The notes under the pieces were generated by a model. It saw nothing but the letters and a program-made list of their open reading frames with translations, made no database searches and was not told the DNA's origin. The position numbers and the translations under genes were made by a program. This document shows positions 546 to 22,211 of a stretch of DNA of 22,231 nt, one piece after another (position 1 is the stretch's first letter; each line of letters starts with the position of its first letter). Source of the stretch: a virus; the IMG/VR virus record IMGVR_UViG_3300028027_000260, positions 1 through 22,231 of that record; one strand, given 5' to 3'.

Positions 546-980
546 CTACTGATAAGGACGAGTCCCTTTTCTATCAATGATTAGGGCTTGTTTCCTTGGA
601 GGTGTACTAGGAGTTAATGGTACACTGATATGCACCCAGCTATCGAACTCTCTGATGAGCTGGTCGTAAGGTAAACCCTTCATAATTAATGTAGCTACAA
701 CCTGATCAGGGGTCATCCCCGATACACGAATATCTGCAGCACATCCTACTCGATGCTGACTAGAATCCTTAGATCCAATAGCATCATTCACCTGCTTAGA
801 TCTGTACCCACTAGTAACAGTGATAGACCTACCTAGCTCAGACCGTACAGTCTCTAGGAACTGACACAACCTCACCAGGTTTTGGAACTCTATGTCAGTA
901 GGCTTATTAAGCCAGCCATTACGAGCAGCTGTCTGCGATGCAGTCATCTCTTCATAGGTGAAGTGAGGTGTTATCTTCAT
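546..980 (-). CDS. M15-family peptidase endolysin (D-Ala-D-Ala carboxypeptidase-like)
   Basis: This 144-aa protein matches phage peptidoglycan peptidases of the M15 group, which cut peptide cross-links in the cell wall at the end of infection. The zinc-site pattern is visible: SSQHRVGCAADI supplies His76 and Asp83, and SWVHIS supplies His117, with Glu111 just before it as the likely catalytic base. TVTSGYRS at about 54-61 is also typical. There is no signal peptide, so export depends on the holin encoded just upstream, whose stop overlaps this start by 4 bases (ATGA). It is the last gene of the leftward operon. Length fits a single-domain enzyme; no separate cell-wall-binding domain is seen. 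Confidence 0.9.
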   Translation of the reverse strand: MKITPHFTYEEMTASQTAARNGWLNKPTDIEFQNLVRLCQFLETVRSELGRSITVTSGYRSKQVNDAIGSKDSSQHRVGCAADIRVSGMTPDQVVATLIMKGLPYDQLIREFDSWVHISVPLTPSTPPRKQALIIDRKGTRPYQ

Positions 981-1378
981 TCCTTCCTAGTCTTCATATC
1001 CATAATCTTCTCTAGTGTACGACCACCAAAGTAGAAGGACATAATAAGCATACCCCATTGACCTAGTAGCTCTACATAAGCTTGATGTGCATTCATGCCA
1101 TAGGCAGACATCAGAGCAAACATGAAGTACCCTGTTAGGATCGCTATAAGGGTCATAGGACGGATGTTCTTAGACAACCAAGAGTCAGACATCATATCTG
1201 CTTCTTGACGCTTAGTAAGCTCCTGAGCCTCTACAATGTCAGCTTCCATCTTCTTGAAGTCACCTTCTTGCTGCATCTTCAATAGCTCTAGCTGAGCCTT
1301 AGCTTTGTCTTCAGGATTAGGAAAGAACTTATCTACCAGCTTCATGCCTACATTAAGGATTGTGTCTAGTGGAAACAT
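977..1378 (-). CDS. Holin, 3TM / GTA-type holin family
   Basis: This 133-aa protein has a charged helical N-terminal half (about residues 20-65, coiled-coil-like). After SWLSKNIRP come two hydrophobic segments at about 75-92 and 104-119, then a short basic tail. This layout matches the phage holin family first described in gene transfer agents. It would sit in the inner membrane and make the lesions that let the endolysin reach the cell wall. Its position directly before the M15 peptidase, with a 4-base overlap, supports a lysis role. Its own start overlaps the stop of the 1057-aa protein by one base (TAATG). Only two membrane segments are obvious to me; the family name implies three. Confidence 0.8.
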   Translation of the reverse strand: MFPLDTILNVGMKLVDKFFPNPEDKAKAQLELLKMQQEGDFKKMEADIVEAQELTKRQEADMMSDSWLSKNIRPMTLIAILTGYFMFALMSAYGMNAHQAYVELLGQWGMLIMSFYFGGRTLEKIMDMKTRKE

Positions 1379-4300
1379 TATTCTTCTACTCCCTTTTTCT
1401 TAAGCTTAGCTCTAATGTACTGCTGTACAAACTCAGGGTCTTGACGCTTCTCAGCAAACATAAGATTAGTAGCTATCTTGCGTGAACGCTGCAGTGCTTT
1501 CTCAAGCAGTATCTTCTTCATAGGATCAGAAGCATTCTGATATACAGGAGATGCAATCATATTCTCTAGCATTGGATCAGCATACTGACTAGAGATAGCT
1601 TGGTATCTAGCTTGATCAGCACCTTCTAGTTCTACACCTTTAAGCTTTTTACCTGGCAAGTCATAGTCTACCTTGACACGAGCTACTTCTCTCTGTACTT
1701 CAGTCTGAACAGCAGGTGCAGTTTGAATACCAGTGAATGCAGCTTGTCCAGTAGCAGGGTTACGACGCTCACCACCGAATAACATAGACTGTACAGGTAA
1801 CTCTTGACGAGCTGGTACAGGCAGACCTAAGCCAAAGTCAGGTATACGATTCTGTACTGCTTCACCGAAGCCAGTGACGACACGCTGATAAGGATCAGCA
1901 CTACGAGCAGGAGCAGCTACGAATGAAGGCACAACTAAACCAGCAAAGCTGTTAATGAAGCTACCACCGTAACGCTCAGGATCATGAATAGCCTGGAGCA
2001 CACCAGAGATACCCTCTAAGAAGGTCTTCGATGCAATGTTCTTAGTGATACCACCAACTACGTCCAGTACTAAGTCTTTAGCTTTACGGTCATAGGGATT
2101 CTTATCAGTGTAGTTCTTAACAGCATTGATACCATCTACTGTAGAACCCATGATTGTAGCTACAGGCTCAAGACGAGCATAGGAATACCATGTATCACCA
2201 ATCCTCATGCTGTACTCAGGGATACCTGCAGCAATCATAGAGTTACGCTTAGCAGCATCTTTAGGATAACTACCAGTAATCTCTCCACTACCTACTAACT
2301 GAGATATACCAACAGCAATACCAGTACCAATAGCTACACGAGCAATCTTAACATCGTTAGGTGTATTCTTAGAGAAGATACCTAAAGGAGTATAAGACAA
2401 TGCATCCTTCATGATGTTGATAGGAGTCTTAACAAATGGAACAACCCATGCTAGTTCAGGATGTTGTGATCTGAATCGTAGGATGTTGTTACCAAACTTA
2501 CCTAGATCAGCCTGGAATGTAGCAGACTTAGCAAAGTCACCCACCTCTTGAATGAACTTAGCACGAATACCATCAGGCAATCCAGCTAAGCCAGGTACTT
2601 CTAGTACTTGATCTCGCCAGTTAGCAGACTTAGTATTGACATTACGCAGTGCATTGTATACTGCATCTTGATCACCATACTTACCACTAGAGGCTAGACG
2701 ATATGCTTGTGCGTTGTACTCCATCTTACGAAAGATAGCTTTGAAGAACTCGTCAGTAGCTACTCCAATCTTACCAGGTATACGAACTCCTTTACCTATT
2801 AGTTGTTCTGCACGACTAGCACCTTCTTGCATACCAATAGCACCACGAATCTCAGGCATTGATGTATCTAAAGGACTACCACGCAAGAATCCTTCCTTAG
2901 CAAAGTAAGCACCTTCCAGCATACCATCCATCATTCCTCTGAATGCAGGAATAACTTCACCCAGCTTTACTTTACTAGCTGGATTTACAGCCTGTAGTAC
3001 ACGCTCTACGCTAAGTAGACCTAGCTTAGCTATACCAGAGGCAGCGTTAACGAATGGAGTAGCGAGACCAGAGATGTAGGAGTTAACAACATACTCACCA
3101 AACTTATCATTCCACTTAGGCTGCTTCAGTGCATCACGAGTCAATGCACGAATAGCAATCTCTTTATCGAATGACGAACCAGGAGCATCCTTGATCTGAC
3201 GCACAGCATCCATCAAGTCCATCAGCGATTCTGTCTCAGTCTTACCTTGGTTACTATCTAAGTACTTACGAACCTGTGCAGGAGATAGACCACCTAAAGA
3301 CTTCTTGATTTGCTTTTGTGCTTGTAGTGCTTTACCTGCATTACGAGCTGAGCCAAGAGGAGATGTTAAGAACGGCTTGATAGCTTCGATGTCTGCTTTA
3401 AACATAGCAGTTAACTCAGCAGGAGATAAACCTTCTGACCTACCTATCTGCATTAGTTCAGATATAGTATTGAATTTCTTCCATGAATCTTCTACGATAG
3501 GAGTGAATGCTCTAAGGATCTCAGCAGGAGCTACTTCTTCTAAGCCACGCATACGCATGAACTCAGCAGCTTGCTCAGGTGTGAATGCCTTGAACTCTGT
3601 GGTTAAGCCTAGCTCAGAGCGCAGCTGTGGAGCATAAGCACTAACTAGTTCTTTGAGTGCATCTTCTGACTGACCTAGACGAGACTGACCAGCCTTGATA
3701 AAAGAATCAATGTTCTCTTGTCTTAGTGGATTGTCTGGGTTGAATGCATCTGAGTAACGGAAGTCTGGTGTCTCAGTGAAACGGAATGGAGCTTCAGTAA
3801 AGAAGGTTCTGTAGTCTCCGTTAGCAATCTGTGTACCTAACTCAGCACGAGTCTCAGCATCTTCAATACTCTTAATCCAAGGAACTACACTCTCTTGTAG
3901 ATTAGTAGGAGGAGGAACAGACTCTTCAGGAATAACAACCTGTGTTTCAGTATCAATCTTATTGACTGGTACTTCTTCTATCTTGTTGGTAAGCTTATTA
4001 AATATCTTAGCTATGCCACGACCGCCACCAACTAAAGCACCTGCAATGGCTGCACCACCAGCGATACCAAGACCAGCAGTAGCTAGTCTACCTAGATCTT
4101 CTTCTTCATACTTAGGTTGTAGTGCTCCGCTGATACCACCAGCTACAGCACCACCAGCGATTAAGCCTTTAGCACCTTTAAAGAATACAGCACCAGGAAG
4201 TAAAGAAGATGGGTTTACTAAGCCACCAGCAAGTGTACCTAAGACACCAGCTACTGGGTTCTCTGCTTCCATCTGACGACGGAGAGACTCCTCTGCAGTA

Positions 4301-4551
4301 TCGGTAGGTTCTTGACCTAGCAACTGACGAGCACCAGTAATCTCAGAACCCATCTCTTGACGAGCAGACTGCTTGAAGGTCTCTAAAGGAGTAGCACCTG
4401 TTTTATTCAGGTGAGTGAGAATTTCTTTAGGCTTGTAGCCTTCAGACAAAGCAGCTGAGTAATCAAACCCAGACTGCTGTGCTAGATACTGAGCAATCTC
4501 ATCTTCCGAGTAGCCTTCTTTCTTTGCAGCAATAACATCAAAGATAGCCAT
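1378..4551 (-). CDS. Large internal virion / DNA ejection protein (polyvalent-type, T7 gp16 position)
   Basis: This is the largest protein in the window at 1057 aa. Its place after two medium-sized internal-virion candidates and before the lysis genes matches the T7 layout, where such proteins are stored in the head and ejected with the DNA to form a conduit through the envelope. The N-terminus has short GYSEDEI and GYKPKEI helical repeats (about 13-45), then two Gly/Ala-rich hydrophobic stretches (about 100-145 and 157-182) that could enter a membrane. The middle, around residues 670-725, carries the segment WVVPFVKTPINIMK. That segment, followed by DTWYSYARLEP near 787-797, recurs in phage polyvalent ejection proteins. 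I see no lysozyme or transglycosylase active site. The start codon follows directly on the upstream stop (TAAATG). The ejection role is inferred from order and these motifs. Confidence 0.75.
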   Translation of the reverse strand: MAIFDVIAAKKEGYSEDEIAQYLAQQSGFDYSAALSEGYKPKEILTHLNKTGATPLETFKQSARQEMGSEITGARQLLGQEPTDTAEESLRRQMEAENPVAGVLGTLAGGLVNPSSLLPGAVFFKGAKGLIAGGAVAGGISGALQPKYEEEDLGRLATAGLGIAGGAAIAGALVGGGRGIAKIFNKLTNKIEEVPVNKIDTETQVVIPEESVPPPTNLQESVVPWIKSIEDAETRAELGTQIANGDYRTFFTEAPFRFTETPDFRYSDAFNPDNPLRQENIDSFIKAGQSRLGQSEDALKELVSAYAPQLRSELGLTTEFKAFTPEQAAEFMRMRGLEEVAPAEILRAFTPIVEDSWKKFNTISELMQIGRSEGLSPAELTAMFKADIEAIKPFLTSPLGSARNAGKALQAQKQIKKSLGGLSPAQVRKYLDSNQGKTETESLMDLMDAVRQIKDAPGSSFDKEIAIRALTRDALKQPKWNDKFGEYVVNSYISGLATPFVNAASGIAKLGLLSVERVLQAVNPASKVKLGEVIPAFRGMMDGMLEGAYFAKEGFLRGSPLDTSMPEIRGAIGMQEGASRAEQLIGKGVRIPGKIGVATDEFFKAIFRKMEYNAQAYRLASSGKYGDQDAVYNALRNVNTKSANWRDQVLEVPGLAGLPDGIRAKFIQEVGDFAKSATFQADLGKFGNNILRFRSQHPELAWVVPFVKTPINIMKDALSYTPLGIFSKNTPNDVKIARVAIGTGIAVGISQLVGSGEITGSYPKDAAKRNSMIAAGIPEYSMRIGDTWYSYARLEPVATIMGSTVDGINAVKNYTDKNPYDRKAKDLVLDVVGGITKNIASKTFLEGISGVLQAIHDPERYGGSFINSFAGLVVPSFVAAPARSADPYQRVVTGFGEAVQNRIPDFGLGLPVPARQELPVQSMLFGGERRNPATGQAAFTGIQTAPAVQTEVQREVARVKVDYDLPGKKLKGVELEGADQARYQAISSQYADPMLENMIASPVYQNASDPMKKILLEKALQRSRKIATNLMFAEKRQDPEFVQQYIRAKLKKKGVEE

Positions 4552-5595
4552 TTATAATCCTAGTTGTGTAGCGATGATTTGCTTGTCTGCTTCCGATAGC
4601 GCACTGAGGTTTATGTTAGGATTGATTCTTAGGATAGCAGCATCTCTATTCTCTCTTGTATAGTTAGCTGGAGCGATAGCACCCATAGCAGCACTAGGAA
4701 GATTCAACAGTTGTTGAGCTGAAGACACAACTCGATCTGTCATAGATGGCTGAGCCGATACAGCAGCTGCAGGAGGCTGAACATTGCCAAAGCTTTCTAA
4801 TGGCTTACGCTCACCTTTAGGAGTATCTCCAGGCTTAGCAGCACCTCTGTTGACTATCTCTGGTGTTACGACAATACGGTTAACTTCTTTACCAGTCTTA
4901 TCAGCGTAGACAATAGTACCACCGCCTAGCCCATCAGAGATAGAGGTAACATTAATCTTACCTTGTTCAATCTCAGTTGCATACTTCTTAGCCAATGCTC
5001 TTTGAGCTTCAGTCTGAGCACCAAGCAAACCAAGCTGAGCCAGTTCTTTCTGACGATCAAGATCAACTTGTACTTGAATCTGACCACGCTGTTGAGCCAA
5101 CTGATTAGCAAGTTTATCATCACCAAGATCACGAGCTTTCGCAATCTGTGTATCAAGCAGTGCAGGATTCTTTTTATAGAGGTCTGTCTTAGCAGCTTCA
5201 GTCTTAATGCCCTGCTCTTCTACTTTCCTTAGTTCCTGCGTAGCCATCAGTGCTTGTTGACCTAAGCCAGCTTCTGCAAATCCAGTCTGTAAGTTCTTAT
5301 AGAAAGACATAGGATCGTTAGGATCTGAGTCTTGCATTACTCGGTTGTATACACTCTGAATGCTAGTTAGTTTCTGTAATACAGGATTAGTAACTTCAAA
5401 GAAGCCACGATCTTGTGCCACGTTAGAGATACCACGACCAAGTAATCCACCGAGTGTACCAGCTAATTGATTCTGTGCTGGCATAGCAGCAACACGAGCT
5501 TGCTCTTGCTGTAGTAACTGTTGACGATACAACTCTGGGTCTGCACCTAAGAGTCCTGCTTGACCGCCTAATAAATAGTTTGTTGGTTGTCCCAT
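4552..5595 (-). CDS. Internal virion protein candidate (347 aa, Gln-rich helical)
   Basis: This 347-aa protein is dominated by Gln-, Ala- and Leu-rich helix-forming sequence. Residues about 130-215 form a long stretch with many KARDLGDDKLANQLAQQ-like segments that look coiled-coil. The C-terminal third is Pro- and Ala-rich, then ends in a short helical domain. There is no enzyme motif. It sits between the 357-aa and 1057-aa proteins, equivalent to the T7 internal core proteins (gp14/gp15 positions), and its stop abuts the start of the 1057-aa gene. I infer that it is a core or ejectosome protein; sequence alone does not prove it. A tail-associated role is the main alternative. Confidence 0.6.
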   Translation of the reverse strand: MGQPTNYLLGGQAGLLGADPELYRQQLLQQEQARVAAMPAQNQLAGTLGGLLGRGISNVAQDRGFFEVTNPVLQKLTSIQSVYNRVMQDSDPNDPMSFYKNLQTGFAEAGLGQQALMATQELRKVEEQGIKTEAAKTDLYKKNPALLDTQIAKARDLGDDKLANQLAQQRGQIQVQVDLDRQKELAQLGLLGAQTEAQRALAKKYATEIEQGKINVTSISDGLGGGTIVYADKTGKEVNRIVVTPEIVNRGAAKPGDTPKGERKPLESFGNVQPPAAAVSAQPSMTDRVVSSAQQLLNLPSAAMGAIAPANYTRENRDAAILRINPNINLSALSEADKQIIATQLGL

Positions 5596-5596
5596 C

Positions 5597-6670
5597 TTAG
5601 AAACCTCTCATTTGATCTGCTAACATACGAGTCTGTTGTGAGCCGATATTAGTACCGTACTGCCACGCTGTCATTGGATTACCAAACATGTTACCTACTG
5701 AACCAAATAAACTAGACCCACCTCCGCCTCCACCGCCACCCATGCCCATCGTTGCAGCACCAATAGCAGATTGTAAGAACTGATTGTTCATCTGATTAGC
5801 AGCCATCGTAGCACCGTACTGAGTAGCAGCACCTTGTGCTTGTCCACCGTAGTACTGCTGTCCACTAGCCTGTTGACCTGGTATCTGAGCTGTGCCTAAT
5901 TGCATACCTAATTGATATGGTTGCTGAGCCATCTGTTCTACCTGACCAGATAAACCTAACTGAGTTTGTAGTGGTGAGTAAGCACCTACCTGACCAGCAG
6001 TCTGAGCACCTAGTAAGCTACCAGCAGTGCCTAATAAACCAGCACCATAAGTAGCTCTCTGCATACCAGCTTGAGTAGCTTGCGATGCCAAGGCTAAGTC
6101 TTGCTGAGCTAAGGCATTGTAGTAGGCTTGCATCTCAGGACTAGCAGGAGCAGTGCCAGTACCTGTTTGTACACCTAAGCCACCACGACCACGACCAAAC
6201 AAACCAGAGCGTGTCTGAGCTAACTGAGCAGAGCGACTAGGAGCTAACAATGCTTGCTGACTTGTCATGTAATCTTGAGCTGCTTGCTCAGGAGAAGTAG
6301 CTAAGTACTGTTGACCAAGACCAAATAGCTGTTGAGCACCTGCACCTAGTGGGGCATACTGCTGACCCATCTGTTCAGCTTGAGTAAGACCAGCACCAAA
6401 CTGACCGAACAGTCTATCCTGTAATCCAGCTAACTCAGGAGCAGCTGTATATCCAGCAGCAGAGATATAAGGAACACCAGTAGCTGGATCAATCTCACGA
6501 GTAAACTGAGATGTACCAAACCTGGTAGTCATTCCTACTGGACGGAAGGCAGAGATATTAGCAGCAGTAAGACCTGCTTGTCTTTGTTGATTAGCAGCAG
6601 CTTCACCAGCTCTACGAGTTTCTCCAGCCCCTGTAAAAGGATCTAGTACTTTACTTACTATACTACCCAT
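5597..6670 (-). CDS. Internal virion protein candidate (357 aa, Gln/Gly/Ala-rich)
   Basis: This 357-aa protein begins MGSIVSKVLDPFTGAGETRR and is very rich in Gln, Gly and Ala. Repeated GQQY- and LGTAGSLLG-like pieces run through it, with an eight-glycine run at about 311-318 before a hydrophobic C-terminal part. Proteins of this kind, with a hydrophobic GLLGTAGSLLG core and low complexity, are typical of small podovirus internal or ejection proteins (T7 gp14 position). The gene overlaps the 99-aa gene upstream by 13 bases and is separated from the 347-aa gene by one base, so all three are probably co-translated. The ejection role is inferred from position and composition; no catalytic motif is present. 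Confidence 0.6.
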   Translation of the reverse strand: MGSIVSKVLDPFTGAGETRRAGEAAANQQRQAGLTAANISAFRPVGMTTRFGTSQFTREIDPATGVPYISAAGYTAAPELAGLQDRLFGQFGAGLTQAEQMGQQYAPLGAGAQQLFGLGQQYLATSPEQAAQDYMTSQQALLAPSRSAQLAQTRSGLFGRGRGGLGVQTGTGTAPASPEMQAYYNALAQQDLALASQATQAGMQRATYGAGLLGTAGSLLGAQTAGQVGAYSPLQTQLGLSGQVEQMAQQPYQLGMQLGTAQIPGQQASGQQYYGGQAQGAATQYGATMAANQMNNQFLQSAIGAATMGMGGGGGGGGSSLFGSVGNMFGNPMTAWQYGTNIGSQQTRMLADQMRGF

Positions 6671-16857: not shown

Positions 16858-17095
16858 TGTCTTCCTCTTCAGAAAGTTGCTCATAGACTTCTGTACTAGA
16901 CTCTCTTAAAGTCTTAATCCAGTTCATGATGGACAGTTCGCCCTTCTTGAAGTGGAGTTGTTGTTCTGTTTCTAAACCGCCTATGCGGTCTGTAGCATCT
17001 ATCATTACTTGGATGTCTTCTACCAGGTCTTTCCAACCCTGAGTAGTCATCATAGCAAATCTATTCTCGTAATAATTTTGCAGCTCCCTGTTCAT
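16850..17095 (-). CDS. Conserved small phage protein (81 aa), unknown
   Basis: This 81-aa acidic helical protein begins MNRELQNYYENRFAMMTTQG, has WKDLVEDIQVMIDATDRIGG and FKKGELSIMNWIKTLRES, and ends in an acidic tail EEEDNA. The pattern of a Tyr/Glu start, GWKDL--D, and FKKGEL--MNWI is shared by short proteins located near portal and capsid genes in T7-like aquatic phages. It has AAGGAG 8 bases before the ATG, inside the end of the HNH gene, and overlaps that gene by 4 bases (ATGA). It may help head assembly; this is inferred only from location. Confidence 0.7.
   Translation of the reverse strand: MNRELQNYYENRFAMMTTQGWKDLVEDIQVMIDATDRIGGLETEQQLHFKKGELSIMNWIKTLRESSTEVYEQLSEEEDNA
16861..16868 (-). 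promoter_or_regulatory. Ribosome binding site deciding the FmdB-like start
   Basis: AGAGGAAG on the minus strand sits 3 bases before the ATG at 16855-16857, with its GAGG core 6 bases away. The upstream ATG at 16882-16884 has only ACAGAAG nearby, so this site favours the shorter product. Confidence 0.6.
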
Positions 17096-17508
17096 ATGCT
17101 GTCTCCTTCTAAGTAAGCTGCCATATTTCTAAGCAACTCAGGATTATCTTCTACTTTTCCTAAAGTAGTATTACAGCGATAGCACAGCAAACCTCTAATA
17201 ATACCTGTCTCGTGACAATGATCTATAGCTAATCTACGTGGTTTATCTTTCTTCCATGTATTAGGGGCTGTTTCTTCATTACCACAAATTGCACATCTGT
17301 TGTCCTGCTGTTCAACTAACCCTAAATAGTTCTCTTTAGAAATTCCGTATTTAGCCTTGATTTGATTAAAGAAATACTTTTCAGGATTTTCTTTATACCA
17401 AGTACGTGATCTTTCTACTGCACAAGGACTACATAGATGTCCTTTAGCCTCTGCTTTAGGGTGATCTAGCGTCTTACAAACTGGGCAATTCTTTAAAACT
17501 CGATTCAT
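17092..17508 (-). CDS. HNH / recombination endonuclease VII-type nuclease
   Basis: This 138-aa protein has two zinc motifs. The N-terminal pair is C8-C11 with C26-C29. The C-terminal pair is C72-C75 with C109-C112, which brackets AIDHCHETGIIRGLLCYRCN (94-113). This DHCH-TG-IRGLLC-CN signature is that of the endonuclease VII family, a beta-beta-alpha-metal nuclease fold; Asn113 is in the position of a known catalytic Asn. Such phage proteins are either Holliday-junction resolvases or free-standing homing nucleases. Its position between fibre and head genes, with its own promoter, suggests a mobile homing nuclease. The preceding basic sequence (KENPEKYFFNQIKAKYGIS) is common in that group. Target site unknown. 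Confidence 0.88.
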   Translation of the reverse strand: MNRVLKNCPVCKTLDHPKAEAKGHLCSPCAVERSRTWYKENPEKYFFNQIKAKYGISKENYLGLVEQQDNRCAICGNEETAPNTWKKDKPRRLAIDHCHETGIIRGLLCYRCNTTLGKVEDNPELLRNMAAYLEGDSI

Positions 17509-17591: not shown

Positions 17592-19022
17592 TTAAGCTAT
17601 TTTTACAGCAGTAATCTGAGTAGCATTATTTCCAGATCCGTTAGCTAATAGAGCTGCCTTCATTAGTACGCTGGTTGCTCCTGCATTTGAGGTGCTTTGT
17701 ATCTTAATTGTAGTTGTACTGGCTAGGGTGATAACTGCAGATAACCCTATACTGACTGTGTGGTTTGCTACCGAAGCCTGATACTGCGAGGAACTAGCAT
17801 GGTGATTTGTACCGTCTGTCAATCTATTAAAGTAAGTTAACGCAGTAGTAGCTGTTCTTGCTAGTGTGGTATGCGTATTAATTAACCATGTCCCTGCTGC
17901 TAGGGATACGCTAGGACCGTCATACCATGTGTTTGATGTAGGCATCTGAACATCAGTCGCTAATGAAGCCTCAGAACTGGTTAATGAGCCTCCACCGCCT
18001 GCAGCAGGTGTAATCCACTGTGTGTTGTAATCAGTAGCGTTTATCTTAGATAAGAATTGACCTGTAGTACCACCAACAGGAACACCAACTCCATTCGTAC
18101 CATTCGTTCCGTTAGTACCTGCGGTCCCTGTAGTACCCGCTGGTCCAGTATCTCCAGTGTCACCTTTAACACCTTGTATGCCTTGGATACCTTGTATGCC
18201 CTGTGTACCTGTATCTCCAGTATCTCCTTTGACACCTTGTATGCCTTGGATACCTTGAGAGCCTGTAGCGCCTTGTGGTCCAACTATTTGACCTACATCA
18301 AGCCACGAACTACCAGTCCATGTGTATAGATTACCGTCTGCTGTAACAATATATGCGTCACCAATGGCATTACCGCTAGAAGATAAAGCACCAACCGTTG
18401 CAGTTTCGCCTTTGATGTTTACAGATGTGCCAGGAGCACCTGTAGCGCCTGTGTCACCTGTGTCGCCTTTGATACCTTGGATGCCTTGTGAACCTGTAGG
18501 ACCAGCAACACCCTGAATACCTTGAATACCTTGCTCTCCTTGTGGTCCAGTTGTGCCTGTAGCACCTGCTGTTCCTTGGATACCTTGTTCACCCTGTGGA
18601 CCTTGTAATCCCATTGGTCCTTGAGCACCATTCATACCGCCTGGTCCTTTAGGTCCTACAATAGGATTGGTTGTTTTAATCTGAGAGCCATCAGAAAGAG
18701 TTAGTAGAAGAGCATCATCAAGTGCAATCTCAGCATTTACAATTGCAGGGGAATCTACTCCATCTTCACCGTCTTTGCCGTCTTTACCATCTTTTCCGTT
18801 AGTACCGTCTCTACCATTAGAACCATCTTTACCGTCTTTACCAGAAACACCTTGATCTCCCTTGTCTCCTTTGCTTCCCTTCTCTCCTTGTGGACCAATC
18901 TGTTTCTCAACAGTCTGGACATTAGAAGAAAGTTCTTCAATTACTTTGTCAAGGACTATTCCAAGAGTCTCTACCTTTGCTTCAGTAGAAACATCAGCTA
19001 AAGTTATGGTTTTAAAGTTCAT
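17592..19022 (-). CDS. Collagen-like fibre protein
   Basis: This 476-aa protein has three blocks of Gly-X-Y triplets at about 43-89, 123-199 and 248-312. The first is KDG-rich and the others have GIQGIQG and GDTGDTG units. They are separated by small globular insertions (about 90-122 and 200-247). After GQFLSKINATDYNTQWITP comes a beta-rich C-terminal head (about 346-476) that ends ATQITAVKIA, likely a trimeric jelly roll. The N-terminus (1-40) is helical and may trimerise or attach to the virion. Such phage proteins form collagen triple-helix fibres. No good ribosome site precedes its ATG, but a 30-codon frame ends on it by ATGA overlap. The triplets and C-terminal head are clear; where the protein sits on the particle is unknown. 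Confidence 0.85.
   Translation of the reverse strand: MNFKTITLADVSTEAKVETLGIVLDKVIEELSSNVQTVEKQIGPQGEKGSKGDKGDQGVSGKDGKDGSNGRDGTNGKDGKDGKDGEDGVDSPAIVNAEIALDDALLLTLSDGSQIKTTNPIVGPKGPGGMNGAQGPMGLQGPQGEQGIQGTAGATGTTGPQGEQGIQGIQGVAGPTGSQGIQGIKGDTGDTGATGAPGTSVNIKGETATVGALSSSGNAIGDAYIVTADGNLYTWTGSSWLDVGQIVGPQGATGSQGIQGIQGVKGDTGDTGTQGIQGIQGIQGVKGDTGDTGPAGTTGTAGTNGTNGTNGVGVPVGGTTGQFLSKINATDYNTQWITPAAGGGGSLTSSEASLATDVQMPTSNTWYDGPSVSLAAGTWLINTHTTLARTATTALTYFNRLTDGTNHHASSSQYQASVANHTVSIGLSAVITLASTTTIKIQSTSNAGATSVLMKAALLANGSGNNATQITAVKIA
18087..18281 (-). repeat. Tandem collagen-encoding DNA repeats
   Basis: Nearly identical units of about 60 bases encode GIQGIQGVKGDTGDTG-like peptides twice in this stretch, with a related unit near 18440-18540. 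They are in-frame coding repeats and could recombine to change fibre length. Confidence 0.7.
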
Positions 19023-19111
19023 GCGTATTTGGATTTAAATTCTAAGTCTTTTTGTTTCTGTATTTGTTTGTCAGCCATCTGAACTTCAACTACTCTTAGA
19101 TTGTTTTCCAT
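19019..19111 (-). CDS. Putative 30-codon linker ORF between portal and collagen-like gene
   Basis: A 30-codon frame starts at an ATG inside the last codons of the portal gene (19109-19111) and ends with TGA overlapping the start of the collagen-like gene (ATGA at 19019-19022). It fills the whole 73-base gap. The peptide starts MENNLRVVEVQMADKQIQKQ and is a charged helix. Only a weak AAAGAG lies immediately before the ATG. It could be a coupling peptide for translation of the collagen-like gene, which lacks its own ribosome site, or chance. No family recognised. Confidence 0.4.
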   Translation of the reverse strand: MENNLRVVEVQMADKQIQKQKDLEFKSKYA

Positions 19112-21009
19112 CTCTTTTTCTTTAAAGCAAGCTCAGCAATCTTTACAGTCTTCTCAAAGTCATTTCTTTCAGCTGCATCCTTGTTAAGAGCAGTCATAAC
19201 CTTTGCTTGAGTCTCAGTAGGTACTGCTGCAGCCTGTGCATCAGCCTTCTTAGCCTCTGCAAGAGCTTTAGCTGCCTCAGCTTGTACTTTTTGTAGCTGT
19301 GCCATCGCTGTTTCCATAGCAATCTGCTGCATTTGCTGCTGCATTGGGTCTGGTTGGCTCATTTCCTGGAGCTTAGCGATGATTTCTTCACGATTAGAGA
19401 TACTAGAACCCTGAATAATACCCTGCAACAGTACTGGAGTGATAGGAGACTGTCCTAAAGTAGACATTAAACCCATCATCTGCTGTTGTTCGTACTCACG
19501 AGCTACCATTCCCATAGTAGAAACAGGGATAAAGGTAAAGTCTTGTACTGGATAACGGTCTGGATCGAACTGCATGAAGCGATACGCAGCCTTAGTAATG
19601 AATGGAATCAGGAAATCTTCTTGGAAGTTGATCAAGGTACGCTTGTTCTTCTTCATTAGCCCTGAGAGAGCCATAGAGAGTCCTGCGCCAGAGGCTTCAC
19701 CACCTGCTACCTGACCTGGCATAGCAGTGCTATCGAGCGTTCCTGTGGCTTGCTGGAGCATTCCTTGGAAGTTCTGTGCTGTCTGGAAGTTAGCTGGATC
19801 AGTTGTGCCAAACTTGAATGGCATCATGATCTCATTAGGGTTACCGTTGACCAGCATGTTCTTACCTGGACGTACTTCGTACTTAGCACCACGAGGAAGC
19901 CTTGTAGCATCCATCGCCATCATTGGTGCTGTGGTTAAAGCTAAGGAGTCTAGGTGGCTACGGATCTGAGCATCGATAGCCTTCTGCATATTGTAGCCCT
20001 TCTCAGCAGTACCACGACCCCAGAAACGACCTGGCATCGAGTCAGCTTGATAAGCAACAATAGGACGATCCTTCATCATGTAAGGAGAAGCTTCAGCCTT
20101 GAGTAAGTACTGGTCATCCGCAATCACAACGATAGCCTCTACCATGTCTTGGTAGTCTTCACCTTTAGAACCTTCAGGGAAGAGGTCAACTACTTCAGCA
20201 CCTTCTTCTCTGTCTACATTCTCAAGGTACTCACGAGGAACTAAACCGTAGTAACGAGTAACACGAATACGATCATCCTGCTCATGGGTTACTTCTTGTA
20301 CTGGCTCTAACTCCATGTTGGAGTAGCTAGGCATGATGTTTACTTTACGGTATGTACCATCAGCAATGCTACGAACCACAGAGTGGTAAGAGACATACTC
20401 TTCAATAGCAACACCAAGAGAGTCTTCCACTGTACGAGCATTAGGCTCGATAAGGAAGTTACGAGGATTGACAGGATACAGATCAATCATGAACTGCTTT
20501 GTCTCTTGTACACCGATAGCTGCCATCTCAGTTCCAGGGATAGCCTGAGTAGCTGGAGACATCACTGTCTTTTCTTTAACTAGGATCTCACCGATACCAG
20601 TACCATAGAGTTCACCTAGTAAGATGATGTCATCTAAGGACTTCTTAATGCGTGAAGTCTTAAAGTCTTCGTGCATCTGTTTACGAACTAGAGCTACATC
20701 AGTAGGATCTTGATCGTTCCTATCGTCAGCGATATCGAAAAACTCTCCACGACCAAACACAGCTTCAGAGATCTCTGCTTGCTTGGACTCAATAGCTTGC
20801 TGCAGCGCAGGAGTAACTAAGCGACTACGCTCAGACTCACGAGTCTTATCTGCTGAATCCCAGATACCACGGAACAAACGCTCATACTCTTCCCACTTAT
20901 CCAGGTAGTTGACATCACGGTGATCTCGCCATGTATTACACTGATCAACGATAAAAGATACTAACTCTTTATCGTCTTCCGTCATCTTGTCTTCTTTAAA
21001 TTCAGCCAT
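19096..21009 (-). CDS. Portal protein
   Basis: This 637-aa protein matches podovirus head-tail connector (portal) proteins, the dodecameric ring through which DNA is packaged and ejected. Visible segments include LYGTGIGEI at about 134-142, NPRNFLIEPN at about 181-190, and PGRFWGRGTAEKGYNMQKAI at about 326-345. This last is a strongly conserved portal motif, followed by a stem-like region around 345-450. From about 550 to 605 the protein is Gln/Ala-rich coiled coil (QQIAMETAMAQLQKVQAEAA), consistent with a barrel extending into the head. It starts 3 bases before the end of the metallopeptidase-like gene's intergenic spacing, so the two are almost certainly co-translated. Size is slightly larger than T7 gp8 (about 536), mostly from the C-terminal helix. 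Confidence 0.92.
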   Translation of the reverse strand: MAEFKEDKMTEDDKELVSFIVDQCNTWRDHRDVNYLDKWEEYERLFRGIWDSADKTRESERSRLVTPALQQAIESKQAEISEAVFGRGEFFDIADDRNDQDPTDVALVRKQMHEDFKTSRIKKSLDDIILLGELYGTGIGEILVKEKTVMSPATQAIPGTEMAAIGVQETKQFMIDLYPVNPRNFLIEPNARTVEDSLGVAIEEYVSYHSVVRSIADGTYRKVNIMPSYSNMELEPVQEVTHEQDDRIRVTRYYGLVPREYLENVDREEGAEVVDLFPEGSKGEDYQDMVEAIVVIADDQYLLKAEASPYMMKDRPIVAYQADSMPGRFWGRGTAEKGYNMQKAIDAQIRSHLDSLALTTAPMMAMDATRLPRGAKYEVRPGKNMLVNGNPNEIMMPFKFGTTDPANFQTAQNFQGMLQQATGTLDSTAMPGQVAGGEASGAGLSMALSGLMKKNKRTLINFQEDFLIPFITKAAYRFMQFDPDRYPVQDFTFIPVSTMGMVAREYEQQQMMGLMSTLGQSPITPVLLQGIIQGSSISNREEIIAKLQEMSQPDPMQQQMQQIAMETAMAQLQKVQAEAAKALAEAKKADAQAAAVPTETQAKVMTALNKDAAERNDFEKTVKIAELALKKKRWKTI

Positions 21010-21011
21010 TA

Positions 21012-22211
21012 TTACATTCCTTCAGGGATTGTGGATTGTGGTACTTGCATAGCAAACGGATCAGCAAACGCTTCTTGCTGTGTTGCTTGTGTTCTAGGAG
21101 GAGTTAGATTGGTAGTATTAATGTTGTATAGTTTATTAATACGATCATCATCAATTGCTTGCATAGCAGGAGTTGCTAAACGCTCTTCAGGAGAAAGAAG
21201 CCTACGCTGCTCTGTTTGCCTAGCAAATGTCTCACCAGCTACTCGCATGTAATCTCCAGCTGCTGTGTTGTAGGCAGCAGAGTTAACATCTTTTAAAAAT
21301 AGAATATCGTTTAAGTTTTGAAACTTTAAAGATCCGTCATCATTCTTAGCGTCTACCATCTTCTTAAATTTAGTAGCTAATGATTTGCTATTAAAGCCAC
21401 GCTCTAATGCTTTCTCTATTGTTAAACCGTTTCGCTGTTTAAGAAACTGAGTGGCTTCAATAATTGAATCTACATCAAAACCAGAACGAGGATTCTGTTT
21501 TAAGAATCGAATGATGTCAGGAGAAGATTGATTAATCTTTTGTTCTAGTGTTTTATAAGTATCCGTAAACAAGGGATTACTATTCAACACACCTCTGAAG
21601 CTTTCGCCTCCAGTTAGTCCTTCTCTTTGCTGTACATAATGCTGTATTTCATGCAAAGTAGTTCCTAATGGATCAGAAGAATCCCAAGCAGGAGACTTTC
21701 TATTGAACTGAATGGTGTTGTTCTCAGGATCAAAAGCTGCTAGAGCAGTGTTCTGACTGTCGTCCTTCATTAGGATTTTTACATCCGCTATCTCAGGATA
21801 GCTTTTCTTTAGTGTAGGTGCTTTGAATATCTCATCAAAACCATAGTAGTTTTTGTTAGTGAGGGTATTAATATCGATTCCTTTTTGGAAATCAACATTA
21901 CGATCACTAATCTCAAACATTGCTTTTTCAGCTGTAGGATCATATGATAAGCCAACTGCTCCATACTCTTTGTCCCACTCAGCAGGAGACATTAAGCCTC
22001 TGTCTTGCTCTGCTCTTGCCATCGTCGCAGTCAAAGAATCAGCATCTACTAATCCTGCTTTGCCTAAATTGCTAACACCTTCTCCACCAATGAACATCTC
22101 AGGTGTCAGACTAGGAGTAGAACGACCAACTCCTCTAAACAAACCTTGAGCCTCTAGGTTATCAATTAACCCAGGAGCTACTTGTCTAAACAATCCAGCA
22201 ACTATACTCAT
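21012..22211 (-). CDS. HExxH metallopeptidase-like phage protein encoded before the portal
   Basis: This 399-aa protein carries a zinc-peptidase motif, HEIQH at 187-191 in TTLHEIQHYVQQREG, followed by GGESFRG. A second conserved block, YMRVAGETFARQTEQRRLLS (321-340), contains Glu327, a candidate third zinc ligand, and runs into PEERLATPAMQ. The HExxHYVQ-EG and AGE--AR-Q-R---PEER pairing is known to me from domains inside large polyvalent phage proteins; here it is free-standing. Residues 1-110 and the C-terminal 45 (Gln/Pro-rich) have no recognised motif. There is no signal peptide. The gene is 2 bases upstream of the portal gene and has AGGA 7 bases before its ATG. An upstream gene seems to end in TAA at 22212-22214. 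Substrate and role are unknown: capsid processing or injected protease are both possible. Confidence 0.72.
   Translation of the reverse strand: MSIVAGLFRQVAPGLIDNLEAQGLFRGVGRSTPSLTPEMFIGGEGVSNLGKAGLVDADSLTATMARAEQDRGLMSPAEWDKEYGAVGLSYDPTAEKAMFEISDRNVDFQKGIDINTLTNKNYYGFDEIFKAPTLKKSYPEIADVKILMKDDSQNTALAAFDPENNTIQFNRKSPAWDSSDPLGTTLHEIQHYVQQREGLTGGESFRGVLNSNPLFTDTYKTLEQKINQSSPDIIRFLKQNPRSGFDVDSIIEATQFLKQRNGLTIEKALERGFNSKSLATKFKKMVDAKNDDGSLKFQNLNDILFLKDVNSAAYNTAAGDYMRVAGETFARQTEQRRLLSPEERLATPAMQAIDDDRINKLYNINTTNLTPPRTQATQQEAFADPFAMQVPQSTIPEGM

Follow-up and report, generated by a model that had tools for sequence, protein, structure and literature searches.

What is a free-standing peptidase-like gene doing between the terminase and portal genes of a phage? 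The question is raised by the IMG/VR virus record IMGVR_UViG_3300028027_000260, the whole 22,231-nucleotide stretch of which was analysed here (the window). The gene runs from 22211 to 21012 on the minus strand (ATG at 22211, stop codon at 21012-21014) and encodes a protein of 399 amino acids (aa) that is predicted to be a zincin-type peptidase. A sequence-only reading had pointed out a metallopeptidase-like domain with HEIQH at residues 187-191 and a conserved Glu327 downstream, in the head-gene block beside the portal, and had proposed that it may be a particle-borne protease acting on scaffold or core proteins, or on host targets after injection. Both motifs are indeed present in the open reading frame (ORF), the candidate ligands are conserved and the location holds; only the minus strand had gone unmentioned. 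As had been stated, the gene ends two bases before the portal gene, which starts at 21009 (19096 to 21009, minus strand, identified by library matches). The new result of our analyses is the association of this peptidase with one particular set of ejection proteins.

Twenty-two long contigs, all of them metagenomic, were compared gene by gene, 11 with the peptidase and 11 without it. An unsplit, single-chain ejection protein, which we term type I and which is represented in the window by the 1057-aa internal virion (ejection) protein (1378 to 4551, minus strand), was encoded by 11/11 peptidase-bearing contigs and by 0/11 peptidase-less ones. Ten of the 11 peptidase-less contigs carry a type II family of 310-437 aa, usually followed by an unrelated protein of 816-991 aa, and a profile comparison of the type II and type I large ejection proteins detected no homology. 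The 347-aa neighbour of the type I protein (4552 to 5595, minus strand) also co-occurs with the peptidase. Two contigs with type I and no visible peptidase, G086 and G087, stop before the terminase-portal slot and were therefore left out as uninformative. The peptidase and the ejection genes are separated by about 16 kb, and the contigs have their portal, scaffold, capsid and tail genes in common; in 26 such families the peptidase label changes 2-7 times on the family's own tree, and the backbone is therefore well mixed. The 357-aa gene beside the ejection block (5597 to 6670, minus strand) is, among the shared genes, one of the two whose alleles follow the peptidase most closely (2 label changes), and its product is possibly a third ejection protein.

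Thus, the suggested connection to core proteins re-emerges as a statistical tie to the type I set, and the connection to the scaffold does not. The location among head genes and the predicted peptidase domain would suit a true prohead protease with scaffold or capsid as its target; however, homologues of the scaffold, capsid and portal are found in all 11 relatives that have no peptidase, so a scaffold-processing role is unsupported and we regard it as very improbable. On these data the peptidase is an accessory in head assembly, yet coupled to one type of ejection protein and exchangeable with a second predicted protease.

One phage, G099, bears on this coupling from another side. It has no peptidase core, and its type I-like ejection protein is encoded as separate ORFs joined via ATGA and TAATG overlaps. 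ORF A (538 aa) corresponds to type I residues 1-275 (E 2e-15) and ORF C (691 aa) to residues 474-1070 (E 5e-37), and the middle ORF B (approximately 210 aa) gave no match to type I. In its slot lies a protein of approximately 139 aa that begins with MSIVSKLFG and ends with QFSDVSQSTIPQPFEGM, with the outer ends of the slot protein kept and the HExxH domain absent.

The genomes that have no peptidase carry a papain-like protein of 128-149 aa (PHROG 3754), which is absent from the peptidase-bearing ones. Of 24 distinct contigs covering both loci, obtained from 33 records by our own deduplication, 13 have only the peptidase, 11 only the papain-like gene, none both and none neither; the window contig ends before the papain-like locus and was not included. 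Cys18 and His112 do not vary among 48 homologues of this protein, and its structural model (predicted local distance difference test, pLDDT, 87.8) has its best alignment with the ComA C39 peptidase domain (Z 8.2, root-mean-square deviation 3.1 over 108 residues), followed by PCAT1 and many further papain-like enzymes. The model therefore leads us to predict a papain-like (C39-like) cysteine protease. Homologues of this family (G008:C1:33158-33580; relatives L290-L368) also occur in many other phages.

An alternative is that there is no functional link at all: two old lineages, one with the peptidase and type I and the other with the papain-like gene and type II, would have exchanged their other genes by recombination and left the association by chance. 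The small number of independent switches (three by a conservative count on supported branches) and the metagenomic nature of the contigs are in keeping with this scenario. However, the two loci are widely separated, the backbone genes beside and between them are mixed (2-7 changes), and the mutual exclusion is not violated in any of the 24 contigs; we thus consider a chance leftover improbable.

The nature of the domain was addressed through its relatives. Fifteen first relatives share 45-92% identity with the window peptidase, and every complete one has HE[IVL]QH. The conservation of HExxH among homologues, a test that the sequence-only reading had named, extends to 58/58 complete distinct homologous ORFs, in which HE[IVL]QH is kept together with the GE motif, the four exceptions being truncated fragments; this argues for a maintained, predicted catalytic site. 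In the window, this putative zinc site comprises the HEIQH codons (21639 to 21653, minus strand), assigned by motif conservation, and the Glu327 codon (21231 to 21233, minus strand), assigned by alignment, which lies within VAGETFARQTEQRR and would supply the third zinc ligand in the GExxAR motif of polyvalent relatives. One further copy (L183, 6001-6690) is broken by a single stop codon near the contig end, reflecting either a sequencing error or a decaying copy. In an alignment of 37 sequences, which takes in slices of polyvalent proteins at 21-27% identity, P139, H187, E188, Q190, H191, G202, Y321, G326 and E327 are invariant. Judging from this invariance into distant polyvalent proteins, the predicted pairing of HEIQH with Glu327 is more than coincidence.

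Single-sequence searches with the window peptidase reached Pfam DUF6782 ('putative metallopeptidase') at E 0.003, below the cut-off, and PHROG 13543 at E 1.6e-4; a sequence search of the PDB gave no significant match. By tblastn and BLAST, a module consisting of an LPD23-like lead-in, HExQH, a variable insert and GExEAR recurs in ORFs of approximately 2,700-3,900 aa. A profile built from slot proteins and some of these slices matched MT836673 (E 1e-30), L196 (1.5e-26) and EBPR podovirus 3 gp3 (1.5e-21), all of them outside the profile's own members. Scores of the alignment A3 profile for L193-L195, L197, L199 and L200 were excluded as circular because slices of these proteins sit within A3, and their tblastn and BLAST matches were used instead. 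MT836673 contains InPase, LPD3 and LPD23 domains and is thus a polyvalent protein. Pfam LPD23 (PF18838) is above threshold in MT836673, L193 and L194, below threshold in EBPR podovirus 3 gp3 and without a match in the window peptidase. These matches bear out the suspected kinship with huge polyvalent phage proteins and assign the domain to the LPD23-associated zincin module of such proteins, here in a free-standing, predicted form. The window protein has no multi-domain architecture of the polyvalent class, being 399 aa long with one domain, and some relatives add one domain more. As a separate observation, the giant polyvalent ORF of L199 (IMG/VR contig, from 592) contains two modules of the LPD23/HExQH type, with HExQH at residues 1804 and 2612. 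A search of giant proteins for a 'Rosetta stone' fusion joining the peptidase to a type I ejection protein found none. Among 84,980 bacterial and archaeal genomes of GTDB, the patterns used recovered no relatives of the peptidase.

The AlphaFold model of the peptidase (mean pLDDT 83.6, predicted template modelling score 0.77, with residues 83-345 mostly at pLDDT >90) shows three predicted strands (145-148, 158-161 and 166-169), the HExxH helix (181-197), a long insert and the Glu327 helix (325-338), in this order. Together with the fold alignments and the polyvalent homologues, it places a predicted zincin domain at residues 83-345 (21177 to 21965, minus strand), with an LPD23-like lead-in at about 88-112 and a helical insert at about 204-320. 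Against the viral predicted structures of BFVD, the model gave 14 matches with E <1e-3, the majority of which bear the name large polyvalent protein. Foldseek searches of the PDB returned no significant match for this model or for the papain-like one. Alignments with solved zincins, covering residues 83/111 to 338/345, were all weak (selecase Z 5.3, IrrE Z 5.0, jannalysin Z 4.7 and anthrax lethal factor Z 4.5), and the helical insert lets helical proteins of no relation reach equally high scores; VIA-align values served as a second look only.

The terminase-portal slot itself is variable. Across 80 portal loci from IMG/VR, it holds the peptidase alone, the peptidase with a methyltransferase-like domain or with a domain of approximately 95 aa, a small protein of 145 or approximately 84 aa, a 164-aa Cys-rich protein, or nothing. 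A tree of 76 portals implies no fewer than 16 changes of slot content, and L035 and L037, which have identical portals, differ in the methyltransferase fusion. The methyltransferase-like domain (Methyltransf_23, E 3e-4) has relatives in CRP-738 gp40, Myrna gp97 and a protein of Microcystis phage MJing1 encoded directly 3' of an SU10-type portal. In L034, L035, L044-L046 and L052, it separates the peptidase from the conserved tail. The domain of approximately 95 aa is likewise fused before the tail (L009, 2068-2355; L041, 3075-3362) and had neither relatives in the phage collection nor a family match. Cys-rich slot proteins of 163-164 aa were seen in L061, L054, L084, L085 and L091.

Two outer segments of the peptidase stand out in this variable slot. 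Residues 1-60 form a conserved N-terminal segment (MSIVxxLFR..., 22032 to 22211, minus strand), and residues 382-399 form a C-terminal tail, FADPFAMQVPQSTIPEGM (21015 to 21068, minus strand), that is common to unrelated slot proteins: the peptidase, its fusions and the 145-aa protein all end in [DN]PFxM[QA]VPQSTIP(EGM|GI). A degenerate DNA search located the tail in 54 IMG/VR contigs, with one match each and always at the C-terminus of a slot protein, except in L141, whose contig stops inside the tail. In distant slot peptidases the tail has diverged, for instance to YTNPMESSIQSSIPKGL; a different tail, (L/P)FxSSIDDTTEED, is frequent among the small and Cys-rich slot proteins. The ratio of nonsynonymous to synonymous polymorphism (pN/pS) is 0.11 in the tail as opposed to 0.55 in the body stretch upstream of the motif, and the tail codons vary synonymously; selection therefore acts on the peptide. 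For the same reason, DNA-level conservation around the portal's ribosome-binding site was rejected for most of the tail. The probable site (GAAGGA) overlaps the end of the tail and may account for constraint on its final three residues (EGM). The simplest reading of these sequence patterns is that the tail is probably a docking or packaging tag.

Taken together, our analyses lead us to favour, tentatively, a virion-borne zinc peptidase acting on type I ejection proteins, for which catalysis, virion location, tail function and substrate are all inferred. The peptidase would be packaged in the head close to the portal, held by its C-terminal tail; the ejection proteins of T7 form a stack on the portal (PMC8954989). 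The peptidase would cleave type I ejection proteins, the 1057-aa chain being the likeliest substrate, and thereby either trim them inside the head or free domains during ejection. In phages with other ejection proteins, the papain-like protease may meet an equivalent need. Processing of ejection proteins would account both for the peptidase's occurrence with the unsplit chain and for the separate ORFs of G099, and it agrees with the proposal that polyvalent metallopeptidase (MPTase) domains process their own polyproteins (PMC5512222). A review of ejection proteins contained none of the proteolysis terms looked for, and proteolytic processing of these proteins would be new, as far as checked, for T7-like systems. 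A broader and rather unlikely generalisation is that podoviruses mature or activate their ejection proteins with either of two unrelated and interchangeable peptidases, a virion-borne zincin or an early papain-like enzyme, the zincin being loaded by a C-terminal tag in a swappable portal-side slot.

The closest competitor, possible and ranked below this reading, is an injected effector: a head-borne peptidase would pass through the type I channel and cut a host protein (defence or takeover) as infection begins, with an early papain-like protease doing so elsewhere. Several observations are consistent with it. Members of this domain family are characteristic of injected polyvalent proteins; there are methyltransferase-like fusions, whose domain relatives occur in polyvalent-type proteins among head genes or beside a portal; and the slot content is accessory. 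However, it leaves the tie to a single ejection-protein set unexplained, unless the type I channel is needed for delivery.

Several further points weigh against the processing reading. The papain-like gene is found among the replication genes, on the opposite strand; such a position would fit an early function directed at the host and hence the effector. The peptidase/papain-like state switches six times on the best TerL tree and three times on well supported branches, and with three supported pairs a sign test cannot reach significance. Distance-matrix correlations are high for several other genes and do not single out the ejection proteins. Relatives of the type I C-terminus (internal virion protein D) occur in phages outside the peptidase comparison. 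The split-gene example is a single phage, G099, which moreover retains the papain-like gene despite its already split ejection protein.

Regarding the remainder of the window, the description of the phage as T7-like stands for the large ejection protein, which matches a PHROG named internal virion protein, and not for the portal, which matches Pfam SU10_portal. Between the portal and capsid genes lies a 476-aa protein with collagen-like Gly-X-Y repeats (17592-19022, minus strand), and the structural block also encodes a 138-aa protein (17092-17508, minus strand) whose Cys/His pattern, by eye, resembles an HNH endonuclease and whose homologues occur in some relatives only. A Peptidase M15 family protein (546-980, minus strand; Pfam E 1e-22) is probably the endolysin. 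No tRNAs or known RNA families were detected in the 22,231-base record.

Because the domain most common in polyvalent proteins is here free-standing and linked to one defined ejection set, its substrate and timing become testable in a phage of approximately 40 kb. If the ejection proteins are the substrate, a proteolytic step in the DNA delivery of short-tailed phages would have gone unrecognised; if the tail is a packaging tag, it would be an easy means of recognising virion cargo proteins.

Among known systems, the polyvalent zincin-like MPTases (Iyer et al. 2017, PMC5512222), which have LPD23 (PF18838) upstream, share the HExQH and GExxA motifs and, as far as the model predicts it, the order of three strands, HExxH helix and Glu helix. 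The window peptidase differs from them in being free-standing, approximately 400 aa long, placed in the terminase-portal slot and equipped with a shared C-terminal tail. The C1 domain of the N4 virion RNA polymerase likewise has HExxH in an ejected virion protein (PMC12633501; PMC5512222); unlike the window peptidase, it is part of a 3500-aa chain that is reported to be packaged unprocessed. EBPR podovirus 3 gp3 (JF412296) is also a free-standing protein with an LPD23-like segment and HEIQH, located directly before terminase gp4 and portal gp5, so that the arrangement is not limited to the lineage of the window; its gene order is peptidase-terminase-portal rather than terminase-peptidase-portal, and no shared tail was seen in gp3. 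Finally, the internal head proteins of T4 that carry a capsid targeting sequence provide a parallel in which a short signal brings variable cargo into the head. The T4 signal is N-terminal and is removed by gp21, whereas the tail of the slot proteins is a C-terminal, putative signal.
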